This document shows, in pieces, positions 40,744-64,000 of a DNA stretch of 64,000 nucleotides. The notes under the pieces were generated by a model. The model searched no databases. It was given only the letters and a program-made list of their open reading frames with translations, and was not told where the DNA came from. Position numbers and translations under genes: made by a program. Source of the stretch: Thraustochytrium sp. TN22 (lineage: Eukaryota > Sar > Bigyra > Thraustochytrida > Thraustochytriidae); the NCBI GenBank assembly GCA_013306675.1, contig JABLUY010000206.1:1-64000 (forward strand). The letters are read 5' to 3'. Position 1 is the first letter of the stretch; each line of letters starts with the position of its first letter.

Positions 40744-41352
40744 ATGCAAGAAATGTCAATGCAAAACCTCCTGGACATGACGTATGTGGAGACTGTGCAA
40801 GGATTGCCGAGTCGCGTCTTTTACCAGTATGCAAGCACAAGTGAGGTCGTCGCGTTGCTACGAGGCTACTCGCCGGCTCTCTACAGGGCTCTGCAGATCC
40901 AGGTCGTCGACGTGAACCATGTCCATGAGCCATTGCAGACGCTGCGATTCACGGGCCCCAACTTTGACCTTGAGGACGTGATCGAAGACGGCGGCAAGCG
41001 GGTTCTCGTGGGCTGTTCTCTCGAGCAACGACCGGAGAGACACGACCTAATGCTCTTCAGGTGCTGCGCTAACAAACACGCTCGCGTAGGATCATACGAG
41101 CTCCAGGTCCGACTTCTGGTTGGCGACGGAGTCCAGTGGCATTCTGGCGAAAGCCTTGCCATTCTGACTTTTCGTACCCTCGCCTGGAAGAAGAAGAATA
41201 GGGTGTATTTGGAGACCAACAATATAGATGTGCAAGGGACGATGGAAGCATATGCGGCTGCGGTACACGCGTTGAAGGACACCTTCTCGCGTCCCGACAG
41301 CCCTTATGTCGCATCATTCAATGCAGATATCGCGCACAACCTCGTAGCATGA
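40744..41352 (+). CDS. short member of the FxIxSK/SFxxGG-like family
   Basis: I do not recognise this 202-residue protein from known families. Strand-like segments (ALQIQVVDVNHVHEPLQTLR, RVGSYELQVRLLVGDG, RVYLETNN) are followed by a helix ending HALKDTFSRPDSPYVASF. That ending parallels RAFKDSFSTIGPTAYF in the gene at 62218 and RESIKDSFANGG or RKAIKDSFMEGG in larger members at 45782 and 59415. RVFYQYA and LQIQVV also parallel RVFVYEP and LELQVV of the gene at 63636. It has no membrane tail or basic signal. After the stop, another frame reads AYDEKIPFEA and KKTFDTKTTADDLEKTF with stops, possibly a decayed extension. Confidence 0.6.
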   Translation: MQEMSMQNLLDMTYVETVQGLPSRVFYQYASTSEVVALLRGYSPALYRALQIQVVDVNHVHEPLQTLRFTGPNFDLEDVIEDGGKRVLVGCSLEQRPERHDLMLFRCCANKHARVGSYELQVRLLVGDGVQWHSGESLAILTFRTLAWKKKNRVYLETNNIDVQGTMEAYAAAVHALKDTFSRPDSPYVASFNADIAHNLVA

Positions 41353-42581
41353 TGCCTACGACGAGAAGATCCCCTTTGAAGCTTAGAAGAAGACGTTCGA
41401 CACCAAGACGACCGCAGATGACCTCGAGAAGACTTTTTGATCAAGAGACAGCGAACAGACTCATGGTGTAGCACCACCAGCGAGTACAATCCAACTAATG
41501 TTATCATGTATCCTAAGAGCAGCTGACTTCGGTCTCCTGACCTTGGCACACGTTATTGGCACGGCTCCTGGGACTCGATTTCTTGCAGGGCACGTGACTG
41601 GCACTAGCATTGGAGGGCAAATGGCGGCAAGACGCGCAGCCTGGGCTGGTTGCCAAACCAAGGGTAGGATGATGAAATGCTCGTCCACAATTGCGACGTC
41701 GCTCTTGCTGCAAGCCAGGCCACGTGTCGGCGCGCTTCTGAAGGTAGCACCGCGTGCGCACCATCGTTTTGCAAGCGGCCTCGCACTGGAACGGGAATAT
41801 GAGGTCCGTGACTTGGCACTCGTGAAGGGCGTCAAGTGAGCCTCTGAGTTCGCGACAAGAACAAGCGTCGGCGGGCTTGAGAACGCTCGGCGAGCTTGAG
41901 AACGCTCGCGCCAAAAGAAAAGGCAGAAAAGGCAGAAAAGCAGACAGGAAAAATCATCGGGCCCAGGACGGTGCCTTTCACGTGGCCGAGGCCGCGCAAT
42001 GAGGCCAAGGCTGCAGCCGAGGACGAGGACCTCCTCGCCGGCTAAGCGCGGCTATGCGCGGCTATGCAGCGAATGCAGCGTTCTCGAGACCAGAATGGAC
42101 CACCCTTACTGTGCGCTTGGTCCCCATCTCACGGCCAAGCTGTATTTCCCGCGCGCGGCGCCAGGGGCACGTGGCCGTAGTGGCTAGTATCTAGCTAGGC
42201 TGTGTACGGCACCTATCCGAGTTCGACGCCGCTGCGCCGCTCTCCAGCTTTGTGGCAACGCTTGAGCAACGCGTTGAGCCGCGTTGAGCACCGCCTCGCG
42301 TGCTCACGCATTTCGGTGTGCGCGGCACGCGACCCTCCGTCGGCGGCTGCACGTTGGCAGCGCAGGCTGCACGCGGCTGCACGCGGGCCGCTGCGGGGGA
42401 GAGGCTTGGGCCGCGGCGCGTGCCAGACGCTAAGATCTCGCGAGACTCGCGTGCGGCGCTGCGGCGCGCCGGGCCGCTGAGCGAGCAAACCCGCAACTCG
42501 AACACGAACTCGGACTTGGCAAGAGGCGAGTTGAAGCAGGCGAGAAGGCCGGCAGGCGAGCGGTCGCTCAAGGCCGCCGCG
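41353..42581. other. intergenic region, possible decayed coding pieces
   Basis: It begins with the coding-like remnant just described (41354-41448). A 113-codon ATG frame at 41498-41839 overlaps open frames on the other strand and has no features of a real protein, so I do not call it. Short repeats (gcttgagaacgctcg x2 near 41873, aaaggcag near 41920, cgcggctatg x2 near 42046) follow. Confidence 0.45.
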
Positions 42582-43784
42582 ATGGAGGAGCGAGGCGAGG
42601 GGAATGGCCGGCAACTGCACATGAGTGACGAGGACCTCTTGCATTACGCGGATGAGCTCGGCCTCGAGGAGGGCGAGGGCGAGGAGGCAGACGATCAGTC
42701 GTTGCTGCTGGACGAGGAGGACGGCACTGGTGTCGCGGACGACGTGGACGACCTTGTGACTGATTTCAGCGACTTGGCGATTGGGGGCGACGCGCGAGAC
42801 CCGACGCCGCCGCGCCAGCCACCCCCTGGGGCGCCGCCTGCGCCCGTACCGCCTGCGGCCGTGCCGCCTGCGCCCGTGTTGCCTGCGGCGGCTCCAAGCG
42901 CGCCGACAGCCAGCGAGCCCGCTGTTCGTGTCCGGCCTTTTGTTCGCGTCCTGCGGCAGCCGCCGTGCATGGTCAACAAGGAGATCAGGTCCGCGTGCGA
43001 GGTACTCATCGAGATCGAGCTGGGCGCAGACGTCGGCATCGGGAACCTGGACGTCACCATTGTCTGCACGGAGGACCCCAGCATGGAAATGAAATATCGA
43101 GCGTCGCGATCTGGCGCGGACGAGGCACGCCTTGATCTCCATGAGCCGCCTCCGGAGGGTTCAGCCTTCCAGCAGGCGCGCCTCTTGATTCACCCGAGGC
43201 ACCAGCGGCGGCTCTTGGTCGGGCTCAAGACTGTCCGCCAGGCGGCCAAGGCGGCTTTTCGAGTTCACTTTCGACACCGCGAGCGCTTCGACTTTGAGTC
43301 AAGCACACCGCTCGCGGACCCGAGCATCGAGGTTGTTACAGAAGTCTTCGAGACCACTGCAAGCAAATCATCGCCCGCGAAATCGAGAGCCAGGGACTAC
43401 GAGGAGGCGAATGACGCCCTCTTGGAGGAGTACGCTTCGCAGCCCGCGACACGGCGGAGAGAGCCCGCGCCTCGGCAGCGAACTCCGCAACGCGTGCCTC
43501 CGCAGGCCGAGCCAAGGCAAAGCGAGCCGCGGCCTGCGCCTCAGCAAAGGCAGCGCGCAACTCAGCAGCGAGCTGCGCAGCCTGCACCTCGGCAGCGAGC
43601 TCCGCGGCCAGCAAGTCGGCAGCAGACAGCACAGCGCAGCGTCCTTGCAGCCAGCCCGAGGGCGGCGCCTCCTGCGGACGCGGCGGACGCGACGGGCCCT
43701 GGCGCGCTCTGGTTGCAAGTGCGTCCTGCTGCGATGGCGCTCATGGTCTTGGTCTGCATGCTTTCGTTTGTGTACCGCGAGTAG
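42582..43784 (+). CDS. tail-anchored member of the FxIxSK/SFxxGG-like family (divergent)
   Basis: This 400-residue protein has an acidic N-terminus (DELGLEEGEGEEADD), a Pro/Ala-rich spacer with PAPVPPAAVPPAPVLPAAAP, and a predicted beta domain (about 118-260: EVLIEIELGADVGIGNLDVT, MEMKYRAS, RRLLVGLKTV, FRVHFRHRERFDFESS). A Gln/Arg/Pro-rich linker with repeated RQR(A/T)(P/T)Q motifs follows, then the hydrophobic C-terminal segment RPAAMALMVLVCMLSFVYRE. The layout matches the members at 47904 and 59415, although sequence identity is low and the SFxxGG helix is not clear. A cytosol- or nucleus-facing protein held by its tail is the likely topology. Its stop is 57 bp from that of the convergent PARP-like gene. 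Confidence 0.6.
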   Translation: MEERGEGNGRQLHMSDEDLLHYADELGLEEGEGEEADDQSLLLDEEDGTGVADDVDDLVTDFSDLAIGGDARDPTPPRQPPPGAPPAPVPPAAVPPAPVLPAAAPSAPTASEPAVRVRPFVRVLRQPPCMVNKEIRSACEVLIEIELGADVGIGNLDVTIVCTEDPSMEMKYRASRSGADEARLDLHEPPPEGSAFQQARLLIHPRHQRRLLVGLKTVRQAAKAAFRVHFRHRERFDFESSTPLADPSIEVVTEVFETTASKSSPAKSRARDYEEANDALLEEYASQPATRRREPAPRQRTPQRVPPQAEPRQSEPRPAPQQRQRATQQRAAQPAPRQRAPRPASRQQTAQRSVLAASPRAAPPADAADATGPGALWLQVRPAAMALMVLVCMLSFVYRE

Positions 43785-43841
43785 GACTCCCACTTGAATG
43801 AGCCAAACAGAAAGATCAGTTCAAATTAACACCATCGTCCT

Positions 43842-45244
43842 TCAGGGGCGCGCCCGAGCTCTTGCACCACGCCCACTCCAAAGCTTGTAGGTGACGAGAC
43901 AGACGGGGTGCGACTGCTCCTTGTCATAGACACCAAGGATTTCGGCAGCAGGAAGCATCTTCCAGAGTTTCCTGACCGCGCGAACGCTGTCGTAGAGAGC
44001 GCCAGGTTGCTCGCCAGGAATAGGTGGCGGGCGCACCTGGTCCTTGGCACCGTTTTTGACATGAGCCATGCGGCCACAGGCAACCTGTGCCATGATGAGC
44101 TGTCTCTGGTCGCTTGTTCTGCCATTGGCGTCGAGGCATCTGTGAGCGTAGCACTTCATGATGGGACGTGGGTCGAAGGCAAAGTGCACAGCGACGCCGA
44201 GGAAATTGCTGGACCTACAGACGCGCGGGTCGAGGCCCTCGGATCCGAGACACACCTGTTGCGGGTTGAGCATGGTGGTGCCATGCCAAAGGAATCTCTG
44301 GTTCGGTTCGGGTGCGCCTGGCCTATCCGGAAGCAGGTCGCACAGGTTGGCGAAGCGGCGCTTCAGGTACGGATTCGACACGACCTGGAGGCGCGTGATG
44401 GCATTGACGAAGACGCATGGCTCGGGAGAGCTCTGCGTCGAGCGCTGGCGAACTCTCTCGTCGACCTCGCGCTCATGGAAGCGCTTGAGCATGTCGCGCC
44501 AGCGCGTGGACCCGGGCAGGAGATCCAACAAGCCCGGCTTCTTGTTGAGCTGTGCCAGGAGTGCATCGTGCATGGCGTACTCGCAGAGGTCCGTCCACAT
44601 GCGCTTGGCGTCGACGAAACCAAGCACCGCGTCGTTGCACTCCGGGCGGTCCACGCTGAAGACGTTCTCTGGCCGGGTGCCGCTCGTGTCATCGGAGATC
44701 GCCATGGCCTCGATGCGTAGGACGGTGCGCAGAAGCTGTACGCGCAGGCCAGCCATCCACGACGCATGGTCGGTGCCCTTGGGCTCGATCACAGGCTCGG
44801 CGTAATCTGTGATGTTGACCCGGCCGTCGCCCAGCGAATAGTGCAACACCAAGGCAGGCACGCTCCTCTCGCAGGTTTCCTGGTTGAGAGACGCGACGAT
44901 CTCCCGCACATTGATGCTGCGCTCCGCTAGGCTCTTGCAATACTCGTTGCACAAGAGCTGATCCAGGGACAGCTCCATGCGTTCCGCGTGCTGCGCCTTG
45001 GCCTTGGCTTCTGTGCCGCCTTGCTGCGCCATGTCCCTGATGAGTGTCCCCAGGCCAATCTCAGGCGTCACGACCGTAACCTCCGCAGACTGTGTCTCTT
45101 CCCTGCGCAGTCTCCGCCGCTTGCTTTCCACCACGCGCACTGAGCCGCCGTCCGAGTCGCTGTCGATCACGATGTCGGGCTCGCGGCGTCGCTGCGATCC
45201 CCTGCGAGCCGCATCGTCATTACCGTCGCCGCCGCTGGTGCCGT

Positions 45245-45278
<34 letters not shown>

Positions 45279-45308
45279 TCCGCCTGCAGGCGCGTCCTGG
45301 CTGTCCAT
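43842..45308 (-). CDS. PARP-type ADP-ribosyltransferase
   Basis: The C-terminal domain of this 488-residue protein is a PARP catalytic fold: FLWHGTTMLNPQQVCLGSEG carries the NAD-binding His-Gly (His near residue 340), then SSNFLGVAVHFAFDP with the conserved Gly-x-x-x-x-Phe-Ala, the Tyr in MKCYAH, GALYDSV and the final strand HPVCLVTYKL. The third triad position is not a clear glutamate, as in mono-ADP-ribosyltransferases such as PARP10-16, so mono-ADP-ribosylation is more likely than poly. The N-terminus has poly-Ser (agc run at about 45250), an acidic stretch and a basic cluster (ESKRRRLRREE), likely nuclear. No zinc finger or WGR domain is present. It lies inside the family array. Confidence 0.82.
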
Positions 45309-45781
45309 GGCCGCCCGCGCTGCCGCTGGCCACGTCGAGCGAGCTTTGGTGAGGCGAGATCGCCCTGGCCGACGTGGTGGTACCTCGGTATGGTACCTCC
45401 ACTGGTACCCACCCCTCCAGGTCGCACCAAGAACGCCGCTCAGGCCGGCCATCTGCAAAGCCACAAGCAAGGACTCCAGCCGTCCGCGCTTCTGGCTCCA
45501 TCACCATGGCCGCCATACAAATCGAACTCTGTTGTCTTTTTGTAAAAAAGGTCCCACGTAGCGCGCTACGTCACACACAGCAAGAGTATCACCAGAACTG
45601 CGAGCGTCATGGCACCACCGTGGTCGCCGCCTGGTGTCTTGGGGCGGGTCGTGGTTATAGCCTTTCGTTGGGTCGCAGCAGCCAAGCGTGTGGTGCGATG
45701 CTTGCCCGTACGAGACGATTTACCACGCGCGAGCACGAAGGAGTACTCGACGAGCACGGATGAGAACCTGACTCACTCATT
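45309..45781. other. intergenic region upstream of the PARP-like gene
   Basis: These 473 bp hold the PARP-like promoter. A palindrome-rich patch with three ggtac motifs (ggtacctcggtatggtacc and ggtacc again, about 45379-45410) lies close to the start. No gene is visible. Confidence 0.5.
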
Positions 45782-46918
45782 TCATGTCTCAGGAGAAGCG
45801 GGAAGTGTCCCGGCATCACTGATTTCACAGCTGCTGCTGGCTGGGCTCGCAGGCGTAGCAGATGGCTCAGGCGAGTCTGTCGCCTTCTCGTGCGTCTCTT
45901 GGGCATTGTCCGAGGCAATGTCGGACTCCGAGCCGAGCGTGTCGGTGCTCCCGTCCGAGCCTACGGTGCTCGCGTGCTGCTTGAGCTGCTTGCGCGCTGG
46001 CGCAGATGTCTTGGATGCCTCAAAGAAGGCGACGGTCATGCAGGGATTCAGCTTGGGGATGTCGCCACCGTTTGCGAAGCTGTCTTTGATCGACTCGCGC
46101 ATCTTGACGTAACTCTCCATGATGCTCTTGTCCACAGGCCGACTCTTGGGCGGCTTGGACCGGATGTGAAATTTGGACGTTTGCCGCCACTCGGCGAAGC
46201 CCTCGCATGTGAAGGAGAGGCGGTAGATGCCCTTGATCTTCCCGCGACCAGCCCTGGCGGTCACCAGGAGCTTTCGGTCGTCGTCAAGGTGCCGCGTGAC
46301 CTCGCACTTGATGAAGACTTCTTCTTTATCCTCATCCACGGATCTGACATCGAAGCGCTTGTCGCCGAGACATTCTGCCTCGTAGGTCTGCGCCTCTGAG
46401 CCGCCATCCGCCTCGACCACGATGGTGACCGTCTTTCCCATGGGGAGGTTCACCTCCAGCACAACCACAACCCAGGCCATGTCGGCGAGATCCGGACAGC
46501 ACATTTCCACCGGGTGTTGTACGATCTTCAGCTCCGAGCCCAGCAGCTCGGGCATGGTGCTTGCCGCGCTGGCGCACTCGTCCTCCTTCTTCTCAACATC
46601 GACGTGCGCCTCGGGCAGGAGGTCTGTCGTGCTGGCACATGTCTCTTCCTTCTTCTCTGTCTCGTCGTCGGCGTCGCGCGCGAGCAACTCAAGCACCTCC
46701 TGCCCGATCCTTTGGTCCAGCTGGCTGCTCGTTTCATCTTCGTCGTGATCATCGTGCTGCAGCTGTAGATCCTCCTTCTTCGTTTCAGGCGCCGGGCGTT
46801 CATCTTCCTCACTCGCTTGCAGCTTTTCTAGGCCTAGGATGGCCTCCTGGGGATCCGGCAGCTCGTGGGCGCCCTTCTCATCGTACACGTCGCCGCGCTC
46901 GTCATTGCAGCTCGTCAT
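45782..46918 (-). CDS. soluble member of the FxIxSK/SFxxGG family
   Basis: This 378-residue protein has a long acidic N-terminus with two related segments (ETEKKEETCASTTDLLPEAH and DVEKKEDECASAASTMPELL). The core starts CCPDLADMAWVVVVLEVNLP, continues through YEAECLGDKRFDVRSV and RGKIKGIYRLSF, and ends SKFHIRSKPPKSRPVDKSIM. The helix ends RESIKDSFANGGDIPKLNPC, followed by MTVAFF and the Ser-rich signature STDTLGSE. The closest paralogues are at 47904 and 59415, but unlike them it stops after a Ser/Pro-rich linker with no membrane segment. The ATG at 46918 (MTSCNDERGD) is preferred over upstream in-frame codons. The function is unknown. Confidence 0.7.
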   Translation of the reverse strand: MTSCNDERGDVYDEKGAHELPDPQEAILGLEKLQASEEDERPAPETKKEDLQLQHDDHDEDETSSQLDQRIGQEVLELLARDADDETEKKEETCASTTDLLPEAHVDVEKKEDECASAASTMPELLGSELKIVQHPVEMCCPDLADMAWVVVVLEVNLPMGKTVTIVVEADGGSEAQTYEAECLGDKRFDVRSVDEDKEEVFIKCEVTRHLDDDRKLLVTARAGRGKIKGIYRLSFTCEGFAEWRQTSKFHIRSKPPKSRPVDKSIMESYVKMRESIKDSFANGGDIPKLNPCMTVAFFEASKTSAPARKQLKQHASTVGSDGSTDTLGSESDIASDNAQETHEKATDSPEPSATPASPASSSCEISDAGTLPASPET

Positions 46919-47903
46919 CTTGAGTGGATACCTTTGCGATGAGCGAAGTTTCGGCTTTGCGCTGACCTGTCTGGCCAAACCGTGCTGATAGAGCCAGAGG
47001 AATGGACTCGACGGGCAAAACCAGTGCCGCGGCAATGAGATGAGTGGTGGTCTTCAAGCCCGTTGATTCTAAAAACACGCTCCGGAGCTCTGCTTCTGAC
47101 CTATGTTAGGCGCTCTTGCTGGAAGAGCCAACGAAATGGACACGGCAGGCGACTTGCGGTAGGTCTTAGGCCTAGTCAGCCGTGATCAGTGACCTGTATG
47201 AAGGTGGAAGAGCCAACGAAATGGACAGGCGACTTGCGGGCGCCTCAGGCTAGCCAGCCGTGATTAGTGACTCGCCCTGGCTGGCTTTCGTGTTTCGTGA
47301 ATGAGTCCAATTTACCTGCGGGCCGCCTCAAGCCCACCGCCTCCATCATGATTGCCTGCGCGCAGTGCGCGGGTGTCCACGCACGTCCGCGGCGCTCGCG
47401 ACGCAGTCGTCTCCAACTTGTCACCGAAGACCCCGAGTACCCACCGTCCGAGTCCAAGTCGGCTCGAGTCCGAGTCCTCTGACTCGGACGCGGAGCGACT
47501 CAGAAGTGGCGCGTGCAAGCAGGCGCGGCGGCGACGGCACGCCCTACGCTCTGGCGGCTCTTCGCAGCGGGCCGCGCGGCCGTCACGCACGGCACGGCGC
47601 AGGCGGAGAACACGCCGCGCTGGGCGTGTCTGTCGCGCTGGCTGCCAGGATCGATTGCCTGCCAAAAAGCCACCACGCACCTCTACTGGCTAGGCCCTAA
47701 TAGCTGGCTAGTAACACCAGCACACCGGGCTGCTCGGAGCGCCGCCACTGCATGGACATGTGGTGCAGCAGCAAAACAGGAACTCGAACAGCAGCGCGGC
47801 AGGGCGCGGCAGGGCGCGGCAGGCAGCCTCGCCTCGGGTGAGCAGGTCGGCAGGAGCTGACGACTCGCCTGACCGACCGCCCGCGGCCCGAGCGAAGCGC
47901 GCC
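46919..47903. other. divergent intergenic region between two family members
   Basis: About 1 kb separates the starts at 46918 (minus) and 47904 (plus). It contains the 85-bp direct repeat (47121-47271), a patch with three tccgagtc-type motifs (47448-47490) and a gcgcaggcggagaac stretch (about 47594) also found upstream of the member at 59415 (about 59194). The last 30 bp before the start match the 59415 promoter closely. Confidence 0.55.
47121..47271. repeat. direct repeat, about 85-bp period, two copies
   Basis: Copy 1 starts at 47121 and copy 2 at 47206. Both contain ggaagagccaacgaaatgga, ggcgacttgcgg and cagccgtgat(c/t)agtgac, separated by short indels. Confidence 0.85.
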
Positions 47904-49067
47904 ATGTCCGTCGCGGGCGACGAGCTCCGGCCGCTGGGCTATGGCGAGACGCTTGAGCCAGAGGACCAAGCCTATTGGCAGAATGTCAAGGCGCTCCTGC
48001 AAGACGATGGCGCCAACGCGGCGAGCGAAACGAGCATCCCGCAGGGCGATGGCGCCAGCACGGCGAGCGAACAGAGCATCCTGCAGGACGATGGCCCCAG
48101 TGTGGCGAGCGAACCCAGGATCCTGTACGGACCCGTGGAACGATGCTACCCCGACCTCGCTGATCTAGCGTGGATCGACGTCGTCTTCGAGGCAGATCTC
48201 TCGACGGAAGAGTCGGTCGTCATCATCAAGGTGCTAGCGGACAACGTCACGGTACAGACCTACAAGGTCAACAGCCAACTCGAAGTGAAGTGTGTCCAGG
48301 AGGAGAAGCAGATCTTCAAGTCCGTCAAGGTCCAAGAGCACTTAAAAGACCAGGGCAAGCTCTGGCTGATCGCCAGGGCTGGCCGTGGGGACATCAAGAA
48401 GAAGACATACAGCCTCCGCTTCGCGTACGAGGGGCTCGACGGATACCAAGAAACGAGCACGTTTCGCATGCGATCCAAGCCCAAGAATCGACCGGTGGAT
48501 CAAAGCGAGAAGAACCTCTACCTCAACATGCGCATGGCGATCCAGCGCAGCTTCAAGGAGGGAACTCCCATCCTCGAGCTACTCCCTCCTCCTACGACGC
48601 CTCCGTCGAGGCGTTTGCCGCTCAAGCACGCAAGCACGGAGCGCTCAGATGCGAGCACCGACACGCTTGGCTCAGAGGCCAGCAGCACGTCTACTCGCGC
48701 TCGACAGACGCGCAAGAAGGCCGCGAGCTCGCCCGTCCGCTTCGCAGCGCTCAAGAGTCCGATTGCCAGTGCCAACGCCAGTAACCGTGCCAGCGCAGGC
48801 GCCAGCGACACCGCGAGCACTGGCGTAAGTAGCACCAGCAAGGCTAAGGCCCTCCGAACAACTACTTCCAAGGGGTCCGGCAGCCCGGCAGCTTCCACCG
48901 ACAAGACGCGCAAGCTTGCGGCCAAGGCATCTCCGGCGCGCCTCTCCGTGGAAGCACATTGCGCAGCCAAGTCCAAGAAGCCAAGCGGCGACGAGGACGC
49001 GTCCGTCTCGTCGGTCGTGGCCGGCCTCCTGGCAATCCTCGTCTTCTTGCTCTACATGAATATGTAG
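47904..49067 (+). CDS. tail-anchored member of the FxIxSK/SFxxGG family
   Basis: This 387-residue protein starts MSVAGDELRPLG, nearly as in the gene at 59415 (MSVASDEHEPLE). Residues 33-74 are three 14-residue repeats (pattern QDDGxxxASExxIL). The core runs from CYPDLADLAWIDVVFEADLS through YSLRFAYEGLDG to STFRMRSKPKNRPVD, then the helix MRMAIQRSFKEGTPI and the signature STDTLGSE. A Ser/Ala/Lys-rich linker follows, and the last 20 residues are a single hydrophobic helix (VVAGLLAILVFLLYMNM), a tail anchor. The matching 5' sequence and N-terminus show common descent with the gene at 59415. Confidence 0.72.
   Translation: MSVAGDELRPLGYGETLEPEDQAYWQNVKALLQDDGANAASETSIPQGDGASTASEQSILQDDGPSVASEPRILYGPVERCYPDLADLAWIDVVFEADLSTEESVVIIKVLADNVTVQTYKVNSQLEVKCVQEEKQIFKSVKVQEHLKDQGKLWLIARAGRGDIKKKTYSLRFAYEGLDGYQETSTFRMRSKPKNRPVDQSEKNLYLNMRMAIQRSFKEGTPILELLPPPTTPPSRRLPLKHASTERSDASTDTLGSEASSTSTRARQTRKKAASSPVRFAALKSPIASANASNRASAGASDTASTGVSSTSKAKALRTTTSKGSGSPAASTDKTRKLAAKASPARLSVEAHCAAKSKKPSGDEDASVSSVVAGLLAILVFLLYMNM
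48000..48125. repeat. 42-bp in-frame tandem repeat x3
   Basis: Three units (48000, 48042, 48084) encode QDDGANAASETSIP, QGDGASTASEQSIL and QDDGPSVASEPRIL in the N-terminal variable region of the gene at 47904. The multiple-of-three period keeps the frame. Confidence 0.95.
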
Positions 49068-53669: not shown

Positions 53670-54130
53670 TTTTCATGGACATATAGCAAATTACCTTGAA
53701 CAATATCTGGGCTCAAAGCCATTGAAATCAATTTTCACAGCCTTTTTGTACAATACACACATTCCAATTACCGAAATACTGAATTTTGGGTGTAAAATTA
53801 CCAGGTGGAAGGCTCCTACCTCTTTAGAATTTGTATGGTCTCGACCTGGGCACTCCCACCGTCTCTTATTCAACCTTTTGCACATGCGATGGTTCTTCAT
53901 AGTTCTCAACTTTGCACATGTATTACTCATTTCGCTCAATGTGAAACTGTAATTTCTCTTCACCACATGACGGAGACTTGGCGTAGCTACCTATTAGGAG
54001 CTAAATTTCATCTCATCTCACTTAATTTTGATGGAGAAATTTCATGTCGATGTTTGTTTCATTTACCCTCTCAATACTGTGCATTGTGCAAGTCAGCGGT
54101 ACTCGCTAGTAAAGCCCGTAGTCACGCACA
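53670..54130. other. AT-rich island of foreign-looking composition
   Basis: Two 60-base lines that I counted (53701-53760 and 53881-53940) contain 22 and 23 G+C, so about 37-38 percent, against clearly higher values in neighbouring genes. No coding sequence is recognisable on either strand. An organellar insertion or a remnant of a mobile sequence are the main options. Confidence 0.65.
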
Positions 54131-54898: not shown

Positions 54899-56056
54899 AT
54901 GGAGGACAAGATCTCGCCACCGGGCATGGAGCCCCTCCCGTTTAACCTTGGTGAAGGCGAGGACGTCGCGGACGGGTGGAGTGTAGACGATCAGGCGACC
55001 CTGCGGGAGCTCTTTCCGGGGGCAGACGCGACCGAGCAGAAGACGGACCCCCTCCCGGGCGAGGGCAAGGGTGACGATGATGGTGAAGGCGGCACCCATG
55101 AGCCGACTGTGAGTAGGGATGACCGGGCGGCCATGCAGGCGACCTTCACGGAGAAGGGCGGGGAGGAGGCCAACAAAGAGGGCATGCAAGCAGCTGCGCA
55201 GCCTCCGATCAAGATTCGGCTGCAGCCGGAGACGATGTTGTGCAAAGAGCTCCGGACGTTGGCGCGCCTCAAGGTCGTGATCGAGCTGGAGGATGCGCAC
55301 TTGCTCGGCGACCTCAAGATGGAGCTTATCAAGTCTATCAAGGAGACCACGGGTACGGTGCTGCAGACGGTGCTGCAGACGGCGACGCCTGTCTTCTCTG
55401 AGGGAGCGAAAACGGGCCCCCTCCACAGCGAGGGCGAGGTTGTCTTCGAGAACCTCACCTTCGTGCAGGACCCGCACAAGCCGCGCTTCGTCCTCATTGA
55501 GGGGATGGCGAACCGCTACCGCACCATCTCCGATAAGTCGAGCGGCAAGCGCGATAAGGGCCGTGTCTTCCTCCGCTTCTCGAGCGGTGGCGCCGAGTGC
55601 AAGACGTGGCCATTTCGCATCGCTACCAAGAAGAAGACCAAGAGCCGCGACAAGGCACTGCAGGCGGAGATCAAGGCGGAGCAGGCGAGAATTATCCGTG
55701 ACCTCCGCGAGAACCATGAAAAGCTCGCCAAGAGCTTCGCGGTGGGCAGCGGCGACCCGCATATTTTCTCCCCCATGACGGTGGAGGAGCTCTTCAAGAT
55801 GAAGATGTCCCGGAAGCGCACCAAGCGCACTGCCGCCACGCAAGCGCCGAGCGAGTCCGAGTCTATGCCCAAACGCGCCAAGACGACAGAGATTGCCGAC
55901 ACGCTCCCAGCTGTCGAGACGGACGCTGCCGTGTCCGAGCAAGTCGCCCCCATCGTGCTCCTCGAAGCGCTCCAGCACCACATCTCGCGTGACGAGATCA
56001 CCGACGAGACCATAGCCCTCTGTGCCGACCTGCGCCACGCCTTGTGCGGGCCTTGA
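54899..56056 (+). CDS. nuclear-type member of the FxIxSK/SFxxGG family
   Basis: This 385-residue protein has an acidic N-terminus (to about 100). The predicted beta domain (about 103-243) starts IKIRLQPETMLCKELRTLAR, includes LKVVIELEDAHLLGDLKMEL, and ends TWPFRIATKKKTKS. A helix (250-280) leads to LAKSFAVGSGDPHIFSPMTV and EELFKM. Two basic clusters (RKRTKR at about 305 and PKRAKTTE at about 324) form a likely bipartite nuclear signal. There is no membrane segment. It is closely related to the next gene at 56765: FRI(A/K)(T/S)K, (K/E)SFxxGxGDP and PKR(A/T)KTTEIA are shared. The role could be DNA- or protein-binding in the nucleus, but that is inference. Confidence 0.72.
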   Translation: MEDKISPPGMEPLPFNLGEGEDVADGWSVDDQATLRELFPGADATEQKTDPLPGEGKGDDDGEGGTHEPTVSRDDRAAMQATFTEKGGEEANKEGMQAAAQPPIKIRLQPETMLCKELRTLARLKVVIELEDAHLLGDLKMELIKSIKETTGTVLQTVLQTATPVFSEGAKTGPLHSEGEVVFENLTFVQDPHKPRFVLIEGMANRYRTISDKSSGKRDKGRVFLRFSSGGAECKTWPFRIATKKKTKSRDKALQAEIKAEQARIIRDLRENHEKLAKSFAVGSGDPHIFSPMTVEELFKMKMSRKRTKRTAATQAPSESESMPKRAKTTEIADTLPAVETDAAVSEQVAPIVLLEALQHHISRDEITDETIALCADLRHALCGP

Positions 56057-56764
56057 CCGACACACACACGCCCGCATGTTCTGCGAGCTGAGCACCCACG
56101 GTGGCCAGTCTCCTCCTCCTTGACCCTTAGTTTGATTGTCCCGCACCAGCTCACAACCGTTCATTCGTATTGTATTCCATTCCTTTCTCATCGAAGAGGC
56201 GCGCTGCCGGCGGGCGTCTGCAAGCTCCGCGCCGAGCCTAGCGTCTCCCTCTTGGCCCTGTCGTGCCGCGGCTGCAGTGCTGCCGCCGCCGCAGCCGCCG
56301 GCGGAGCGGCGTCAACTGTGACGCGCGATGAACAGAATGAACATAAAGTACGTCCTGAAATGGAGGCCAGATTGGGGCGCTCGCAAACTGCAATAATCTG
56401 CCTTCGCGAGGGCGGCGCGCGGCGCGCGGCGGCGGCGGCGCGCGGCGGCGTGCGGCGGCGTAGGCGGGGCGGCAGCGTGCGCTCGCGAGCCTTGCCGCCC
56501 CGACGACCTTGCCCCCCCCCTTGCGCGTGGATGGGCTGATGTAGCGGTCCGACTTGGCATGGTTGGGCTGGGCCAAGGCATGGCCCATGTCAGCAGTCTG
56601 AAGGCGCAGAACCAAAGCGATAACTCGAGGCAGCGGCGAGGACGACGGCAGCGCGCGGCGGCGGCGCGGCAGCGGTAGCAGCAGCGCCCGGCTGGCTAGA
56701 GCGACCTGTCGCGCAGCAGCTCCGCGCAGGAGGGCGGACTCTTCGCAGGCAGTTCCAAGGCGCA
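56057..56764. other. intergenic region between the two nuclear-type members
   Basis: About 700 bp with gcggcggcgcgcggcggcg simple sequence near 56420-56470 and a C run at about 56512. No gene is visible. Confidence 0.5.
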
Positions 56765-58441
56765 ATGACGCATGCGCAGCAGCACCTGCTCGAGGTGGGG
56801 GACGCCGCTACGACGACGAACGGCGCCACGGCGGCCATGCTTGGCTTAGCGGATGCCGCCGCAGCAGGCAGCGCGGCGGAAGACGACTTCGACGCGCTGG
56901 CGGGAAAGGTGGCCCCGCCGGAGGACGACGAAATGAGCCTCGGCTCGACCACCGCCCTACACGAGGTGGGGGACGCCGCTACGATGGCGAACGGCACCAC
57001 GGCGGCCGTGGGCGGCATCACGGATGCTGCAGCAGGCGGCGCGCTGGAAGACGACTTTGACGCGCTGGCGGGAAAGGTAGCCCCGCCGGAGGACGACGAA
57101 ATGAGCCTCGGCTCGACCACCACCGGTCTACTCGAGGTGGGGGGCGATGCTTCGACGGCAAACGGCGCCACGGCGGTCGCGGGTGGCTTCATGGATGCCG
57201 CCGCAGCAGCCAGCGCGCCGGAAGACGTCTTCAACGCGCTGGCGGGAAAGGTAGCCCCGCCGGAGGACGACGAAATGAGCCTCGGCTCGACCACCACCGG
57301 TCTACTCGAGGTGGGGGGCGATGCTACGACGGCGAACGGCGCCACGGCGGTCGTGGGTGGCTTCACGGGTGCCGCCGCAGCAGGCAGCGCGCCGGAAGAC
57401 GACCTCGACGCGATGTCGGCAAGCGTTGCCGAGCAAGAGGGTGCGGCGCAGGGCCGCTTCGTCGACAACAACGCCGATGAGACGGGCTCGGTGTTCGACT
57501 CCACCTGCAAGAGCGTCATCGATATCGACGAGAAGACCTTTTGCATGCTTTTTGACCGGAACCTTATGCCTAGCAAGCACCACAAGACTCTTGGCCCTTC
57601 CACAGCTGCCGGCACCCCTCGCCAGAGCATCGAGGGCGTCAAGGTTCGGCAGCAACCGGAGTTGGTGCTCTGCAAAGATCGTGAGACCCTGGCCAAGTTC
57701 GTCATCGTGATTGAGCTGGCGGACGAGCACCTGCGCGAGAACCTCAAAATGGAGGTCGTGCAAGACTTCACTGGCAAGGTACTGCAGGCGGCGACGGCTG
57801 GCGCAAAGGATACGCGCTTTCACACCGAGGGCGAACATGTCTTCAGGGAGCTCAGCATCGTCCAGCACCCGCTCCAGCCCCACCTCTACCTTGTCAGGGG
57901 CAAGGCGAACAGAAACCGCAACATTGGCAAGGGCAAGGCGGGCTACGTCTTCATCCGCTTCACGAGCGGTGCCTCCGAGGCCAGGACGTGGCAGTTTCGC
58001 ATCAAAAGCAAGAAGAACCTGAAGAGCCCCGACGAGATGCTGCAGGCCGCACTCAACATGAGGCAGACGGAGATCATCGCTGCCCTCGAGAAGAACCGCG
58101 CCGAGCTCTTCGAGAGCTTCAAGGAGGGCGGCGGCGACCCGCGCTTCTTTGCGCCCACCACGGTGTCGGAGCTCTTCGACATGAGGATGCCTACCGACAG
58201 CGCCAAGCGCCGCGCCGCGCAGGCGCAGAACGATAGCTTGCCCAAACGCACCAAGACGACCGAGATTGCTATGGACGAGCTGCCGGCTGCCGTCGTCGCG
58301 GAGGCGCGTGGACCGGAGCAGACCCCGTTCAAGGCTGCGTTGGAGGCCGTGAAGAACCACATTGACGCGGACGCGGTCACCGACGAGACCATGAACCTCG
58401 TGTTTCGTCTACGCTGCACCCCGACCACGACACACACGTGA
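56765..58441 (+). CDS. nuclear-type family member with four N-terminal 57-residue repeats
   Basis: This 558-residue protein has a repeat region (residues 8-222) of three full and one shortened copy of a 57-58-residue unit with LLEVG(G)DA, a Thr/Asn/Gly/Ala stretch, and ALAGKVAPPEDDEMSLGS. Then follows a beta domain (about 287-415: VRQQPELVLCKDRETLAKFV to RTWQFRIKSKKNLKS), a helix ending LFESFKEGGGDPRFFAPTTV plus SELFDM, and the basic signal SAKRRAAQ...PKRTKTTEIA. It is the closest relative of the gene at 54899. A short segment before the domain (VIDIDEKTFCMLFDRNLM) is extra. It has no membrane tail. Confidence 0.72.
   Translation: MTHAQQHLLEVGDAATTTNGATAAMLGLADAAAAGSAAEDDFDALAGKVAPPEDDEMSLGSTTALHEVGDAATMANGTTAAVGGITDAAAGGALEDDFDALAGKVAPPEDDEMSLGSTTTGLLEVGGDASTANGATAVAGGFMDAAAAASAPEDVFNALAGKVAPPEDDEMSLGSTTTGLLEVGGDATTANGATAVVGGFTGAAAAGSAPEDDLDAMSASVAEQEGAAQGRFVDNNADETGSVFDSTCKSVIDIDEKTFCMLFDRNLMPSKHHKTLGPSTAAGTPRQSIEGVKVRQQPELVLCKDRETLAKFVIVIELADEHLRENLKMEVVQDFTGKVLQAATAGAKDTRFHTEGEHVFRELSIVQHPLQPHLYLVRGKANRNRNIGKGKAGYVFIRFTSGASEARTWQFRIKSKKNLKSPDEMLQAALNMRQTEIIAALEKNRAELFESFKEGGGDPRFFAPTTVSELFDMRMPTDSAKRRAAQAQNDSLPKRTKTTEIAMDELPAAVVAEARGPEQTPFKAALEAVKNHIDADAVTDETMNLVFRLRCTPTTTHT
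56786..57430. repeat. in-frame tandem repeat of about 171-174 bp, 3.7 copies
   Basis: Units begin at 56786, 56957, 57128 and 57302. The part encoding KVAPPEDDEMSLGST is identical in the first three copies at the protein level and nearly so in DNA. Copies 3 and 4 are most alike, so the array grew stepwise from that end. Confidence 0.93.
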
Positions 58442-59414
58442 AGAGTAGCCTGCATTCATCGTCTGGCCGGTCTTTGACCCTGACCAACTGTACACATCAC
58501 CAATTTACACAAGACTTGGTTGAAGCGCGCAAGCGCTTGACACATCGCGCCGAGTCTTGCTCAACAGCGTACCAGACCTTGGCGGCCATCATGTTACAAA
58601 AGGCAGCTCCAGCGGACTCGAGACCTTGCACCCAGGCAGGATGGTGCACTGTCGCCAAGCACCTCGACGACAGCTCGGGTACCCGCGAAAGCTCTTTCGT
58701 GGGCTGGTACAGCGAGAAGAACGAGAGCGCTCTTCTTCGTGGGCTGGTACAGCGAGAAGAACGAGAGCGCTCTTCTCGAGATGCAGTCTTTGCACGCGGC
58801 AGGCGATCTGCGCAGCTCCAGTCTCCTCCACCCCGCTGCTCCATGACATTAGAGTCGCAACGCCCGCGCCCGCGCCAAACCGTGCTCGCGGCGGTCGCGC
58901 GCACAGCGCAAGTGTCCGAGTCCGAGTCGCCGCGCCGCCGCCGCTGCTTGGTTGTCGCTGACTGCCAGTACAAAAGACCTGGTGCGATCTCGGTCCTCTT
59001 CGACTCGTCATCATCATGATCCGAGTCATGATCACGGTGGCGTCCGGGTCCGAGTCCGAGTCCGGCGAGTCCGCCAAGGACCGATCGCGGTCGTGTCCGC
59101 TGCACGCGCTCGCACGTGCCGCGCCCCGAGCAGAAGCCAACCCTCTGCGAGCGAGCGTCCGTTCATTCCGAGGCTCGAAGCGCGGCGCGGCGCAGCGCAG
59201 GCGGAGAACGGCAGCGCTGCGCTTCAGGGCCTTGAGGAGAGCGAGCGGCGTAAGAACGCGAGGCCAGCGCTCGCCGAAAAGCCACCGCGCGCAGACTCGC
59301 AGCAAGCTCGCTGCGAGCGCCCGCCGCGCTGCTGCGCTGCGCCGCCGCGCCGCTGCCGCAGACCAGCATCGCGGCAGGCCCGCCCACCCGCCCGCGGCCC
59401 GTGCGGAGCGCGCC
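58442..59414. other. intergenic region upstream of the 59415 family member
   Basis: It contains the perfect 40-bp tandem repeat, two clusters of tccgagtc motifs (58913-58935 and 59041-59075), tcatgatccgagtcatgatc (59014) and a gcgcaggcggagaac stretch (about 59194) shared with the promoter of the gene at 47904. The 30 bp before the start also match that promoter. I see no gene. Confidence 0.55.
58698..58777. repeat. perfect 40-bp tandem duplication
   Basis: cgtgggctggtacagcgaga plus agaacgagagcgctcttctt is present twice without gap. The unit contains the palindrome agagcgctct. Confidence 0.93.
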
Positions 59415-60590
59415 ATGTCCGTCGCAAGCGACGAGCACGAGCCGCTGGAGCACGGCGCCCAGGCGCTTCCGCCGCTCGAGCAGACGGCCTGGAAGGAGCT
59501 GCACGAGTGTTTGGCGGAGGATGCCGCTTATGATGGCGCCAGCGCGGCAAGCGTCGTGTCGGACCTGTTGAGCAAGGAGCTGACGATCGCGCAGCACCCG
59601 GTTGAGATGTGCTGCCCAGATCTCGCCGACATGGCCTGGATCATGGTGGTGCTGGACGCGGATCTCATGATGAACAAGACGCTCAACATTTCAGTCAAGT
59701 CGGAGGGCGGCGACGAGGCGCAGGCCTTTGAGGCGAGGTGTCTCGGCGACAAGCGCTTCCAAGTCAAGTGCGTGAAGGAGGAGAAGCCCGTCCTTTCCGA
59801 CTGGGAAGTTCGGCGGCACTTCGACGACGACAACAAGCTTCTGGCGACAGCCAGGACCGGCCGCGGCAAGATCAAGGGCAGGTACCGCCTCTGGTTCACG
59901 TATGAGGGCTATGGCAAGTGGCAGCAGACGTCCACGTTCTACATCCGTTCAAAGCCGCCCAAGGGTCGGCCCGTGGACCGAGGCATCATTGAGAGTTACT
60001 CCAAGATGCGCAAGGCGATCAAGGACAGCTTCATGGAAGGCGGCAGCACGCCAAAGCTGGATCCCTGCATGACCGTGGCGTTCTTCAGGGCGTTGTCCAT
60101 CACGCCCGAGGCGCATGGGCAGCTCAAGCACATGAACACCGAAAGCACGTACGCGAGCACGGACACGCTCGGCTCCGAGGTTGACCGCGCTTCGCGCCAC
60201 AAGAAGTCTGCGCTCTCGCCTGTCCCTTTCGTGACGCCCGCGAGCCCTGCCGCAAGCAGCAGCGGCAGTGGCAGCGACACCGCTCCCAAGCCCGCTACTC
60301 GCGCAAAGCCCACTCGTCCTTCGAGCTCCACCTCCTCGTCTGGCACGAGCAAGCGCCCCACCACAAGCTCGAAGTCCGCCTCGAACCTATCCAAGACGCC
60401 AGCTGCGAGCCAGCGCAAGACGCCAAGCGTCGGGTCTGCTGCGCCCAAGCCCAAGCCCCAAAAGACCAGCGTCAAGTCTCTCGCGGCCAAATCCAAGACG
60501 CCAAGCGGCGAGGAGGACGCGGTCATCACGCCCGCCATGGCCATCGCCGCCGTGGCCATGCTCATCCTCTATATCCTTTCGCGCATGTAG
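59415..60590 (+). CDS. tail-anchored member of the FxIxSK/SFxxGG family
   Basis: This 391-residue protein shows all family features clearly. The variable N-terminus (MSVASDEHEPLE) leads to a core starting EMCCPDLADMAWIMVVLDAD, with FEARCLGDKRFQVKCV, RGKIKGRYRLWFTYEGYG, and the ending STFYIRSKPPKGRPVDRGII. The helix ends MRKAIKDSFMEGGSTPKLDP, then CMTVAFF and STDTLGSE. A long Ser/Thr/Pro/Lys-rich linker and one C-terminal helix (PAMAIAAVAMLILYILSRM) follow. Core sequence is closest to the soluble member at 45782, while start region, promoter and tail match the gene at 47904. A tail-anchored protein exposed to cytosol or nucleoplasm is expected. Confidence 0.73.
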   Translation: MSVASDEHEPLEHGAQALPPLEQTAWKELHECLAEDAAYDGASAASVVSDLLSKELTIAQHPVEMCCPDLADMAWIMVVLDADLMMNKTLNISVKSEGGDEAQAFEARCLGDKRFQVKCVKEEKPVLSDWEVRRHFDDDNKLLATARTGRGKIKGRYRLWFTYEGYGKWQQTSTFYIRSKPPKGRPVDRGIIESYSKMRKAIKDSFMEGGSTPKLDPCMTVAFFRALSITPEAHGQLKHMNTESTYASTDTLGSEVDRASRHKKSALSPVPFVTPASPAASSSGSGSDTAPKPATRAKPTRPSSSTSSSGTSKRPTTSSKSASNLSKTPAASQRKTPSVGSAAPKPKPQKTSVKSLAAKSKTPSGEEDAVITPAMAIAAVAMLILYILSRM

Positions 60591-62217
60591 CGTGCCATCT
60601 TGCACCAAGAACTTTACCGCTCGACGACTCGGACTCGGACTCGGAGGCTCCCCAGGGAAATGCGCAGCTCGTGCACCATGCAAACCGCAGGGCGAGGCAA
60701 GGCGAGGCGAGGCGAGACGAGGCGAGTGCGGGCGAGGCTACCGCGCTTGATCGGGCAGTTGCGTACCTGTGCTGTAGCTACCAAGAGCTAGCTCTCTCTC
60801 TCTAAGTTTACAGCTCTACCCCCGTGCTGCACATGTTATCGAGGGATCGCATGCGACAAGGTCAGAGGGCGGAAGATCAGCAAGAGCGACGCCTGGATGC
60901 CCGCCCCGTCGGAAGCCTCGTGTGACGCGCCCATCTCGGGCGATCTCGGAGCGATCCCGGGCGCGTGGCGAAAGTCTCAGCGACTCCCGGCTCGAACGCT
61001 CAAAATACTTCGCACGCTGCCGTCAATGCAACCCATGCATGATCGCGCAGCGCCACGAGCTGCTCCCAGCGCGGCTCTGCGCCAACCAAGGCGCTCACCT
61101 CTTTGTATCCCGTACAAAGGCCCTAGGCAGCATTACTGCCCAGGCATCGCAATCCTCAGTCTGGCGCCAAGCCTCCCTGCGGCATCGGCAGACTCGCAAC
61201 TCCGGCTCGACCTGGCCTCCAGCTCTCGACCGTACCAACAACCCTTTTTACCCCGTTCCTCGCCCGGCCACCTTGGCCGACGCGAGGGCGGGGCTTCGTT
61301 GCGTTTCTAAGACCTGTCCATCTTTTACTAAAGCTTTCGACTGGATCAGTACTTCTTCACTTGTTACATGTTCATGTTTCATGGGCTGCGCAACGCAAAA
61401 CGAGCAGCAGCGGCGTCTGGTCAGACGCACAGCTCGCGTTTGGCCGGCGCGGCGGGCGCGTGCGCGCGCGCGTAGGCGGGCGGGCGGCGGTGGCGGGGCG
61501 CGCTGCGGGCCCGTGGAAGGTTCCCGCGGGCCGCGCGGTGGCGCGGCGGCGCTACGCAGCCTCGGCGGGCCGCGCGGGGCGTGGGACGCGCCGGGCGTGG
61601 GCGCGCAGGGCGACCTCTGCAAGGCGCACAACGAGGCAACGCTGGCGGTCGAGAACGCGCGCACGAGTGACAGACAGCGACAGGCAGGCAGAACGGCCGG
61701 GCGGCCGCGGAAGTTGCGCGGCGTGACGCCGACGAGGCGTGCGTGCACGAGGCGGGACGCCGATGCGCACCGTCGATCGCGCGCGGGGCGGGCCTCGTTA
61801 TCAGGCAGCACAAGTGACACAGCGAGCGCAAGTGCCACTTTACCGTGTCTGACGTGCTCGATCTTGTGCCAGGCAGCGAGAGGCGGCGATACGCGAGTCG
61901 GGTCGCGTTTCCGCTGGCTCGTGAATGACCTCGGATCGGCCTGGGACTGTGGGAAGAACCCGTCACGAAATCAACGCAAGATCGGCCAGAGAGACCGGCG
62001 CGGCCGGCGTGGAAGGAGACGCGCGTTCGCGAACACGCATGGCGCTGGTGCCCGTGTTCCTTCGCGCATTCTGGAACCCCGTTCTAGCATGTCGACAGGC
62101 CGCCATACACCAGATAAATGATCAGCCGCGTCTGACGGCCGCGTTGAGCCCTTTCACGAGTCGGCGAGGCCGGCCGGCAGACCCCAAACACTCCACTGGA
62201 GCAAGACCAAAGGCACC
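60591..62217. other. intergenic region, no gene seen
   Basis: It begins with gactcggactcggactcgg (60620), the reverse complement of the tccgag motif, and a gcgaggcgag repeat (about 60690-60725). A long open frame at 60922-62121 lacks an ATG, has no recognisable domain and runs through GC-rich simple sequence, so I do not call it. Confidence 0.5.
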
Positions 62218-62874
62218 ATGGACATGCAGGACCTCGAGAACGTTTTCGCCTTTGACGCGGTGCACTTTGGCCAGCTGCCGCCGCCTCGCAACTTCAAGTC
62301 GAACCCCATGACGAAGCAGGTCGGCACGAGCCTCGTCATCCTCTCTGAGAACAGGTTCAGGCGCCTCGCTGTTCGGCTTCGCAACACTCGGACAAGCTCC
62401 ATCATGGAGATTGTCGAGATTGTCATCGACAGCTTTTCCGTCTGGCAGCAGCCGTATGGCTCTCTCCCCTTTCAAGTGGTTGGCGCGCCGCTCGTTGGCA
62501 GTATCGAGGTCAAGATTAAGGCGAGCATGGCCAATGCCGCGATGGAGCAGGAGGTTCTCGTCGCCTTCACTGCTGACCGGGACGAGCGCGTGGCCGCCTA
62601 CGAGCTTTCTGCGACGCTGCAGACCAGCCAGGACGCTTTCGACTGGGGCGAGCCTGTAGTTGCGCACACCTACTTCGAGACGAACACGTCCAGGTTCCCG
62701 ATGAGCCCGGCGCGCCTGCAGGCGTTGGGCCTTTCCGATCGCGCCCAGGTGCAAGAGCGCCTCCACGCGTACGCGCGTCAACTTCGCGCCTTCAAGGACA
62801 GCTTCTCTACCATTGGCCCTACCGCGTACTTTGACCACGCGATGCTCGAGCATCTCGTGCGGCGTCTCCAGTAG
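62218..62874 (+). CDS. short member of the FxIxSK/SFxxGG-like family
   Basis: This 218-residue protein starts MDMQDLENVFAFDAVHFGQL. Strand-like segments (RRLAVRLRNTRTSSIMEIVE, LVGSIEVKIKASM, RVAAYELSATLQTS, HTYFETN) precede a helix, RLHAYARQLRAFKDSFSTIG. It resembles the gene at 40744 in length, order of strands and the ending (Y(F/L)ETN..., A(L/F)KD(T/S)FS). Neither a membrane tail nor a basic signal is present, so the two short genes may represent the bare domain. The start is the first of two nearby ATGs. Confidence 0.6.
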   Translation: MDMQDLENVFAFDAVHFGQLPPPRNFKSNPMTKQVGTSLVILSENRFRRLAVRLRNTRTSSIMEIVEIVIDSFSVWQQPYGSLPFQVVGAPLVGSIEVKIKASMANAAMEQEVLVAFTADRDERVAAYELSATLQTSQDAFDWGEPVVAHTYFETNTSRFPMSPARLQALGLSDRAQVQERLHAYARQLRAFKDSFSTIGPTAYFDHAMLEHLVRRLQ

Positions 62875-63635
62875 GCGCCGCGCTATCCGGACCGTCCTCG
62901 CAGTCGCCGTCAGATACAAATCAATGATCGAACATTGTAAGCATGTCAACCGATGCTCTTGACCACCTTGTCCCTCTTCACCATCACCACCACGTTCTCC
63001 TCCTACCCATCACTTGCGCGCGCGCGGCGCTGCCGACACGACATGTGCGCGCCATGTGCGCGCAGCGCTGCCAGCACCAAGGCGCCACCTCCACGGAGTT
63101 AGGCGCCTAGCGCGGACGTCACGGCCACACTGTCCGTCGCGCCGCTCCACGCAAGGGCGCCGCGCCACGCCACGCATGGGCGCCGCGCCACGCAACGCAA
63201 GGGCGCCGCGCCGCGCAACGCAAAGGCGCCGCGCACGCCGCGCATCCGTCTTGCGCTCCAAGCGACAGCGCCTCCTCCTCCTTCCTCGTTGTCCTCCTTT
63301 CCTCCCGCCGCCGCGCCTCCTCCACCTCGTCCTCGTCCTCGTCCTCACTTTGTCCTCGTCCTCGTCACCCTCCTCCTCCTGTCCGTCAGTGTCCGAGTCA
63401 TGTTCACCATCCGCTCCCCTAGCACTCCTCCTGGCCGGCCAGCGCCGGCCAACTGCCGGTCGTGTTCTCCTCGCTCCCAACTCTTCTGCGCCGACAAGCA
63501 GAGCACCACGCAACCCGCGGAAGCCTGTGGGTTCCGCGCATGCCGCGCTCCCGGCGCTCCCGCGCGCTCCGTCCCACAGACGACAGGGTTCGGTTGGACG
63601 CAGCAGCAAATCTGCAACTTGCCCAAACGTCGGCC
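62875..63635. other. intergenic region with ggcgccgcgc repeats
   Basis: At 63150-63240 a 22-30-bp unit built on gcaagggcgccgcgccacgc is repeated four times. Downstream is a cctcgtcctcgtcctcg run (63328-63370) and one gtccgagtcatg motif (63389). No gene is visible before 63636. Confidence 0.55.
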
Positions 63636-64000
63636 ATGGACGCGGAGACGGCGGCGCTCGTGCAAGATACTCAGCTGGACGTCTTGCAGCCCATGCCGGA
63701 GAGGGTGTTCGTGTACGAACCGCGCCTGCGCTCCGCGGTGCTGGGGCTCCACATCAGGACGCCGGCGAATCAGGTTCACTGTCAGTACGCGCTCGAGCTC
63801 CAGGTCGTCGAGGCGGAAACACAGCGTGAGCGGCAAACGTTCCTTACCGAGGGCGCAGCGAAGGATGGCATCTTCAAGCTCGACAGCCGCTTGAGCCACG
63901 GCACCCCGGTGCTGAAGGATGTCAAGCTTGTGGAGCACAGAGCGCACAAGCAGATTGTCCACTACTCCTTCCAGGTCATCAAGGGCCGTGTTGGGCGCTA
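63636..64000 (+). CDS. further short-type family member, cut by the window edge
   Basis: An ATG at 63636 opens a frame of 121 codons that is still open at the last base. It begins MDAETAALVQDTQLDVLQPM and continues RVFVYEPRLRSAVLGLHIRT, QYALELQVVEAE, TFLTEGAAKDGIFKLDSRL and HKQIVHYSFQVIKGRVGRY. The RVF(V/Y)Y and LELQVV segments parallel the gene at 40744, and the TEG...VHYSFQVIKGRVGR part parallels SEG...FVLIEGMANRYR and KGRVFLRF in the gene at 54899. The 3' half is outside the window, so tail type is unknown. Confidence 0.6.
   Translation, partial: MDAETAALVQDTQLDVLQPMPERVFVYEPRLRSAVLGLHIRTPANQVHCQYALELQVVEAETQRERQTFLTEGAAKDGIFKLDSRLSHGTPVLKDVKLVEHRAHKQIVHYSFQVIKGRVGR

Follow-up and report, generated by a model that had tools for sequence, protein, structure and literature searches.

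The stretch analysed here (the window) comprises bases 1-64000 of contig C118 (68,173 bases) in the genome of Thraustochytrium sp. TN22, and from position 40744 onwards it holds a cluster of neighbouring genes that share a domain of about 150 residues. Nine of these genes, named below by their first position in the window, belong with 12 further loci to a family that we regard as new, though of a known fold class, and that has an unusual branch of predicted membrane-tethered members. Here, we describe the membership, architecture and predicted fold of this family, and weigh a possible role of its members as DNA-binding regulators.

Membership and architecture of the family

An initial annotation had proposed that ten neighbouring genes form one family in a local array. 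In a profile search of the 636 six-frame open reading frames (ORFs) of at least 60 amino acids (aa) on C118, using nine of the 12 outside loci as profile (the C234 gene and two divergent C102 genes were left out), the eight top-ranked ORFs were eight of those ten genes, with E-values of 5.5e-28 (56765), 1.2e-24 (54899), 2.1e-15 (45782), 2.5e-9 (40744), 3.7e-9 (59415), 1.9e-4 (47904), 3.1e-4 (62218) and 9.2e-3 (42582). The weakest, 42582, scored 10.9 bits against 7.3 bits for the next real ORF, a non-member, and the best controls reached 5.4 bits (6360 shuffled ORFs) and 3.7 bits (636 reversed ORFs). A second profile of 19 rows, containing neither gene, matched 63636 at E 2.1e-11 and 62218 at E 3.8e-9. 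A significant family-profile match was thus found for nine of the ten genes; the exception, 52258, was matched by none of the family profiles searched against the C118 ORFs and as a genome query recovered only itself plus one match at E 0.19, and at present does not count as a member.

Single-gene searches of the genome (37.9 Mb, 453 contigs) grouped the members further. Gene 59415 found 45782 (57% identical) and 47904 (45% identical), with otherwise one match at E 0.38; 54899 found nine places on other contigs; the C398 protein (L009:1057-2301, +) found 15 other places at E <=0.1, among them 45782 (2.9e-5) and 40744 (7e-5); and 40744 found the C234 gene (E 8.3e-34, 46% identity) and 63636 (E 9.6e-6). 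As a query, 42582 returned nothing convincing besides itself, all other matches having E 0.12 or worse, and 62218 matched itself alone. The 12 loci off C118 lie on eight contigs, namely C60, C262 (two), C398, C102 (three), C28 (two), C148, C400 and C234, so that a local array is too narrow a description even though nine genes are clustered in the window. Two of the 12 are weaker, C102:14386 resting on E 0.0049 and 0.0040 and C28:83448 having a stop within the match. A possible extra gene at C118:65152-66834 is borderline: three profiles gave it 9.4, 10.4 and 10.5 bits, where the best shuffles reached 10.3, 9.9 and 6.3. As judged by sequence, the family size is about 21, nine genes in the window and 12 loci elsewhere.

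Table 1. Family genes and their neighbours in the window; domains, motifs and tails are as predicted (Ig, immunoglobulin; KD, mean Kyte-Doolittle hydropathy; NLS, nuclear localisation signal).
Position	Strand	Feature	Remarks
37930..38283	-	BAF-like gene	
39657..40205	+	BAF-like gene	
40744..41352	+	short member, 202 aa	Ig-like domain and helix only; sister of the C234 gene
42582..43784	+	divergent member, 400 aa	acidic N-terminus, Ig-like domain, hydrophobic C-terminal tail (KD 1.92)
43842..45305	-	PARP-like gene	
45566..45781	-	in-frame stretch past the 45782 stop	ends in a hydrophobic stretch resembling the 59415 and 47904 tails
45782..46918	-	subfamily A, 378 aa	stops short of the membrane tail
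47904..49067	+	subfamily A, 387 aa	predicted C-terminal tail anchor (KD 2.34)
54899..56056	+	subfamily B, 385 aa	acidic N-terminus, Ig-like domain, NLS-like KRTK/KRAK
56765..58441	+	subfamily B, 558 aa	repeated acidic N-terminus, Ig-like domain, NLS-like KRTK
59415..60590	+	subfamily A, 391 aa	predicted C-terminal tail anchor (KD 2.47)
59559..60110	+	Ig-like domain and helix of 59415	stretch used for modelling
62218..62874	+	short member, 218 aa	Ig-like domain and helix
63636..64000	+	short member cut at the window edge	runs to about C118:64262

Most members open the domain with I-x-Q-x-P and a Cys, followed by strands, a conserved A-N-R-like turn, F-R-I-x-S-K-K and a helix that closes with S-F-x-x-G-G. 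Two features noticed in the initial annotation, F-x-I-x-S-K at the strand end and S-F-x-x-G-G at the helix end, proved to be true alignment columns, and residues 127, 132, 157 and 158 of the domain in 59415 rank within the 30 columns of highest conservation; the final hydrophobic motif that had also been proposed is visible in 45782, 59415, 54899 and 56765. The suspected truncation of 63636 by the window edge was likewise borne out (Table 1).

Around this domain, the sequences fall into two architectures, one with an NLS-like motif and one with a hydrophobic C-terminal tail, while 40744, 62218 and 63636 consist of hardly more than the domain. Subfamily B, examined as 54899, 56765 and eight dispersed genes, has a variable N-terminus in which acidic residues outnumber basic ones (10/10), and a K-R-x-[KR] motif follows the domain in nine of the ten, the basic run of the C398 protein preceding it. 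In a sequence motif scan, NLS-like motifs were found in all ten B members and in none of the tailed ones, and a K-R-x-[KR]-type motif occurred in one of ten other proteins scanned (40744). The hydrophobic ends of 59415, 47904 and 42582 are read as predicted tail anchors. Behind the stop of 45782, an in-frame tail-like stretch (45566-45784, -) is separated from the gene by two TGA codons, the second three codons on, and may be a relic tail, a mis-modelled or unspliced 3' end, or a product of readthrough. Among the outside loci, L041:1465-2721 (+) on C102 is a divergent member with an activation-domain-like C-terminus rich in acidic and aromatic residues. In the C398 protein, residues 381-409 resemble one PPR repeat (best E 0.0064, 4wsl_A), and this C-terminal segment may be a helical pairing element.

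In the family tree, the pairing of 40744 with the C234 gene (support 100/99), the trio of subfamily A (99/99) and the pair of B genes (97/97) are well supported; the deeper forks have weak support, and three of the branches are long. The ratio of non-synonymous to synonymous substitution rates (dN/dS) was 0.20-0.37 by YN00 in the four of eight pairs for which it was computable, and 0.24-0.94 by NG86 over all eight, with the highest values (0.77-0.94) in three recent C262/C28 pairs; because of these values, selective constraint on the family is likely, though not strong by both methods. GC content per codon position followed a high-low-high pattern in 13 of 13 stretches examined, family members and other genes alike.

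Predicted fold and comparison with known families

AlphaFold models of both main subfamilies gave an immunoglobulin-like sandwich plus a helix, with a mean predicted local distance difference test (pLDDT) score of 78.8 and a predicted template modelling (pTM) score of 0.78 for the 59415 domain, and 72.3 and 0.57 for 56765. We thus assign the domain, which had earlier been predicted as a beta domain, to the Ig-like sandwiches with fair confidence on the strength of these models. The best 50 matches of each structure search were antibody and other Ig domains, and we read the CTLA-4, CD28 and antibody matches as a generic likeness of Ig folds. No Rel, STAT or velvet structure occurred in these best 50, an absence that argues against none of them.

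The description as an undescribed multigene family agrees with the sequence searches. Every Pfam and NCBIfam model stayed below its cut-off in scans of the members, with weak matches in single members (DUF4647 at E 0.0072, among others). In Pfam-A hmmscan runs with E up to 1, 1 and 10, none of STAT, CSL, p53, Runx, Ndt80 and CBP60 was among the matches, a negative limited by the HMMER filters, which discard most matches with E >0.1. No PDB sequence matched over the domain, the few weak matches falling in the C-terminal region. Two word-based searches of 5.8 billion proteins yielded zero matches to the family, the first (E <=0.01) scoring the 7997 candidates with most words in common, probably owed partly to low-complexity N-termini, and the second (domain alone, E <=0.1) scoring 767 candidates; such searches require words in common with the query, and distant relatives can escape them. 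The proteins of the window were themselves absent from the results, so close relatives may be missing from the database. A velvet query of the same database gave 1292 matches, of which the best 120 were all PF11754 and many bore fungal names, and eukaryotes are therefore present in it. Among the entries listed by the literature searches, no account of this Ig-fold family was found.

Velvet proteins are known from fungi. The family resembles them (VosA, VelB, VeA; PF11754) in its Ig-like sandwich, which binds DNA in velvets and has a basic loop directly before the C-terminal helix according to PMC3876986, and in two motifs, an initial L-x-[IV]-x-Q-Q-P and, towards the end, F-x-[VI]-x-S-[A]-K-K. 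Unlike velvets, it is without the R-A-R...D-R-R-P loop (QQPxRARxCG..DRRPxxPPP), having only QQP and a nearby Cys in common. PF11754 gave no match in the member scans or in a genome search, in which 14 control genomes were likewise blank. Velvet membership, prompted by the QQP and S-A-K-K motifs, which PDB alignments also show, was rejected on the missing Pfam match and on a reversed control almost equal to the real score. With the Rel homology domain (NF-kB, Dorsal) the family has in common the Ig-like sandwich class, an I-x-x-Q-P start and a basic last-strand end, but it shows one Ig-like domain instead of two, no R-F-R-Y-x-C-E-G loop and no Pfam or PDB match over the domain. The second, dimerising C-terminal Ig domain of Rel was not found, the profile giving one domain per protein and 40744 totalling 202 aa. 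Rel membership was rejected as well, as the profile score lies below the reversed control and no Rel match occurred among Pfam or PDB sequences.

A precedent for a tethered Ig-fold factor is MYRF, which can be held at the endoplasmic reticulum (ER) according to PMC5473870. The likeness to MYRF/Ndt80 is an Ig-fold DNA-binding domain within a membrane-anchored protein (MYRF); the differences are that the family has no Ndt80/PhoG model among its Pfam matches, carries its tail at the extreme C-terminus and has no autocleavage domain detectable by Pfam.

A possible role in DNA binding

The explanation that we favour, at about even odds, is that the family consists of DNA-binding gene regulators, part nuclear and part membrane-tethered, which use a single Ig-like sandwich plus helix in a velvet- or Rel-like way. 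We infer that the Ig-like domain of the family binds DNA. Basic loops at one sandwich end would grip the DNA, namely the loop after the first strand, the EF loop and the last strand's S-K-K-rich end directly ahead of the helix. For subfamily B, with its acidic N-terminus, Ig domain and NLS-like motif, the place of action would be the nucleus. The C-terminal tail would anchor subfamily A and 42582 on the cytosolic or nucleoplasmic side of a membrane, where they would serve as tethered latent factors or compete with B.

The sandwich end that comprises the first loop, the loops CC', C''D and EF and the terminus of the last strand is more basic than the opposite one in 19 of 19 sequences. Of 2000 column permutations, 23 reached the mean difference. 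Among the nine loops and ends, the three with the strongest conservation sit at this end. PMC3876986 reports that VosA uses the loop between strands 1 and 2 at DNA, and that its loop before the C-terminal helix was put at DNA by superposition.

Several observations weigh against a DNA-binding role. The sandwich ends were assigned via strand order, with alternate loops taken to lie at opposite ends, and without coordinates. Two other loops of the basic ('bottom') end show poor conservation (0.296 and 0.367), and the net charge of the first loop is below zero both in subfamily A (-2.7) and in 54899 and 56765, the B genes of the window (-0.5). A VosA Lys mutant of the pre-helix loop kept DNA binding according to PMC3876986, and the S-K-K end is for this reason weak support. 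The member sequences matched no DNA-binding family in the Pfam scans. The velvet profile comparison (E 0.031) extends over just 10 columns, with one of 150 shuffles as good and a reversed alignment at 19.3 against the real 21.9; in the Rel comparison, five of 150 shuffles reached the real score and the reversed control (22.2) exceeded it (16.2). An earlier guess at a Rel/CSL-type domain agrees in broad fold class and basic face, while its sequence and profile tests are not clear of controls. Activation-domain-like stretches occur in 12 of 13 soluble members and equally in 12 of 13 controls (5/7 in the remaining window genes), and this count was dropped as regulator evidence since members and controls are not separated. 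Five B members score 16-18 against at most 15 in the controls, but the threshold was set post hoc and 42582 also scores 18.

Ig-like sandwiches are, moreover, very common, and many bind proteins. A rather unlikely alternative is that the domain is a protein-binding module, the members being adaptors or decoys, with the tailed ones VAP-like on the ER or nuclear membrane and the soluble ones nuclear cofactors. The generic structure matches, the predicted tail anchors of 59415, 47904 and 42582 and the same blank Pfam scans for DNA-binding families would suit it. In VAP proteins an Ig-like MSP domain is mounted on a tail anchor, and the family is like them in combining an Ig-like domain with a C-terminal membrane anchor; however, neither MSP nor another adaptor domain was among the matches of the Pfam scans, and the B members have no such tail and carry NLS-like motifs in all ten cases. 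The basic, conserved loop end suits nucleic acid at least equally well.

Neighbouring genes and remaining alternatives

A PARP-like gene (43842) lies inside the array, with a PF00644 match at E 4.5e-4, below the cut-off, and relatives on C163 and C393. Judged by the residues that we take to be the PARP catalytic triad, it retains H-G-T, has the usual Tyr replaced (V-H-F-A) and lacks a Glu near the end, so that it is perhaps a mono-ADP-ribosyl transferase or inactive. Directly ahead of the array is a pair of BAF-like genes, 37930 and 39657, which are 47% identical; 39657 has a SAM_BAF match at E 0.0041, below the cut-off, and a hydrophobic, hairpin-like C-terminal tail (KD 2.41). Five further matches cluster in about 7 kb of C438, and two of these contain internal stops. 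On C28, a family copy at L018:4745-5530 (-; about 76.7-77.5 kb) joins its N- and C-terminal parts with the Ig-like domain nearly all missing, as seen by eye. Family copies there are also adjoined by L018:6617-10000 (-), a large ORF whose 42-residue tandem repeats are numerous, nearly identical and, by eye, TPR-like.

PARP and BAF have antiviral roles, and the Ig-domain, PARP-like and BAF-like proteins could form a fast-evolving defence cluster acting jointly at the nuclear envelope against invading DNA. The position of the PARP-like and BAF-like genes (one with a membrane tail), the high NG86 values in the three C262/C28 pairs and the lack of any relative of the Ig family in the protein searches made would fit, yet we think this improbable: the PARP and BAF matches fall under their Pfam cut-offs, the YN00 values of the four computable pairs are low, and the PARP-like and BAF-like relatives lie on C438, C436, C332, C163, C393, C1 and C414 without other family loci, so that the co-location is seen once. 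An amplified family of viral or mobile-element origin would explain dispersed copies, a neighbouring ORF common to the C262 and C28 copies (by eye), one domain-less copy and one C28 copy with a broken frame, but it is a very remote prospect, as two viral contig scans were without a relative, BFVD yielded Ig-like matches of varied viruses at low TM-scores, and most copies have distinct architectures and a frame open through the match; a viral origin was rejected as unsupported by the BFVD and contig searches.

Ig-fold transcription factors occur in animals, fungi, amoebae and plants, in the form of distinct families whose links are unclear. That the present genes are Rel/velvet-like single-Ig-domain transcription factors of an independent radiation in a eukaryote which is not clearly a fungus or an animal, with membrane-tethered sisters that retain a DNA-binding domain at a membrane, and clustered with BAF-like and PARP-like genes, is in our view doubtful. 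If the DNA-binding reading is true, Ig sandwiches would have become DNA binders repeatedly, or the class would be older than sequence searches reveal, and the family would provide candidate regulators for a genome whose family genes match no named family. If the tethered sister forms are likewise real, they would amount to a form of Rel-type signalling, tethered or stimulus-released, that is peculiar to this lineage.
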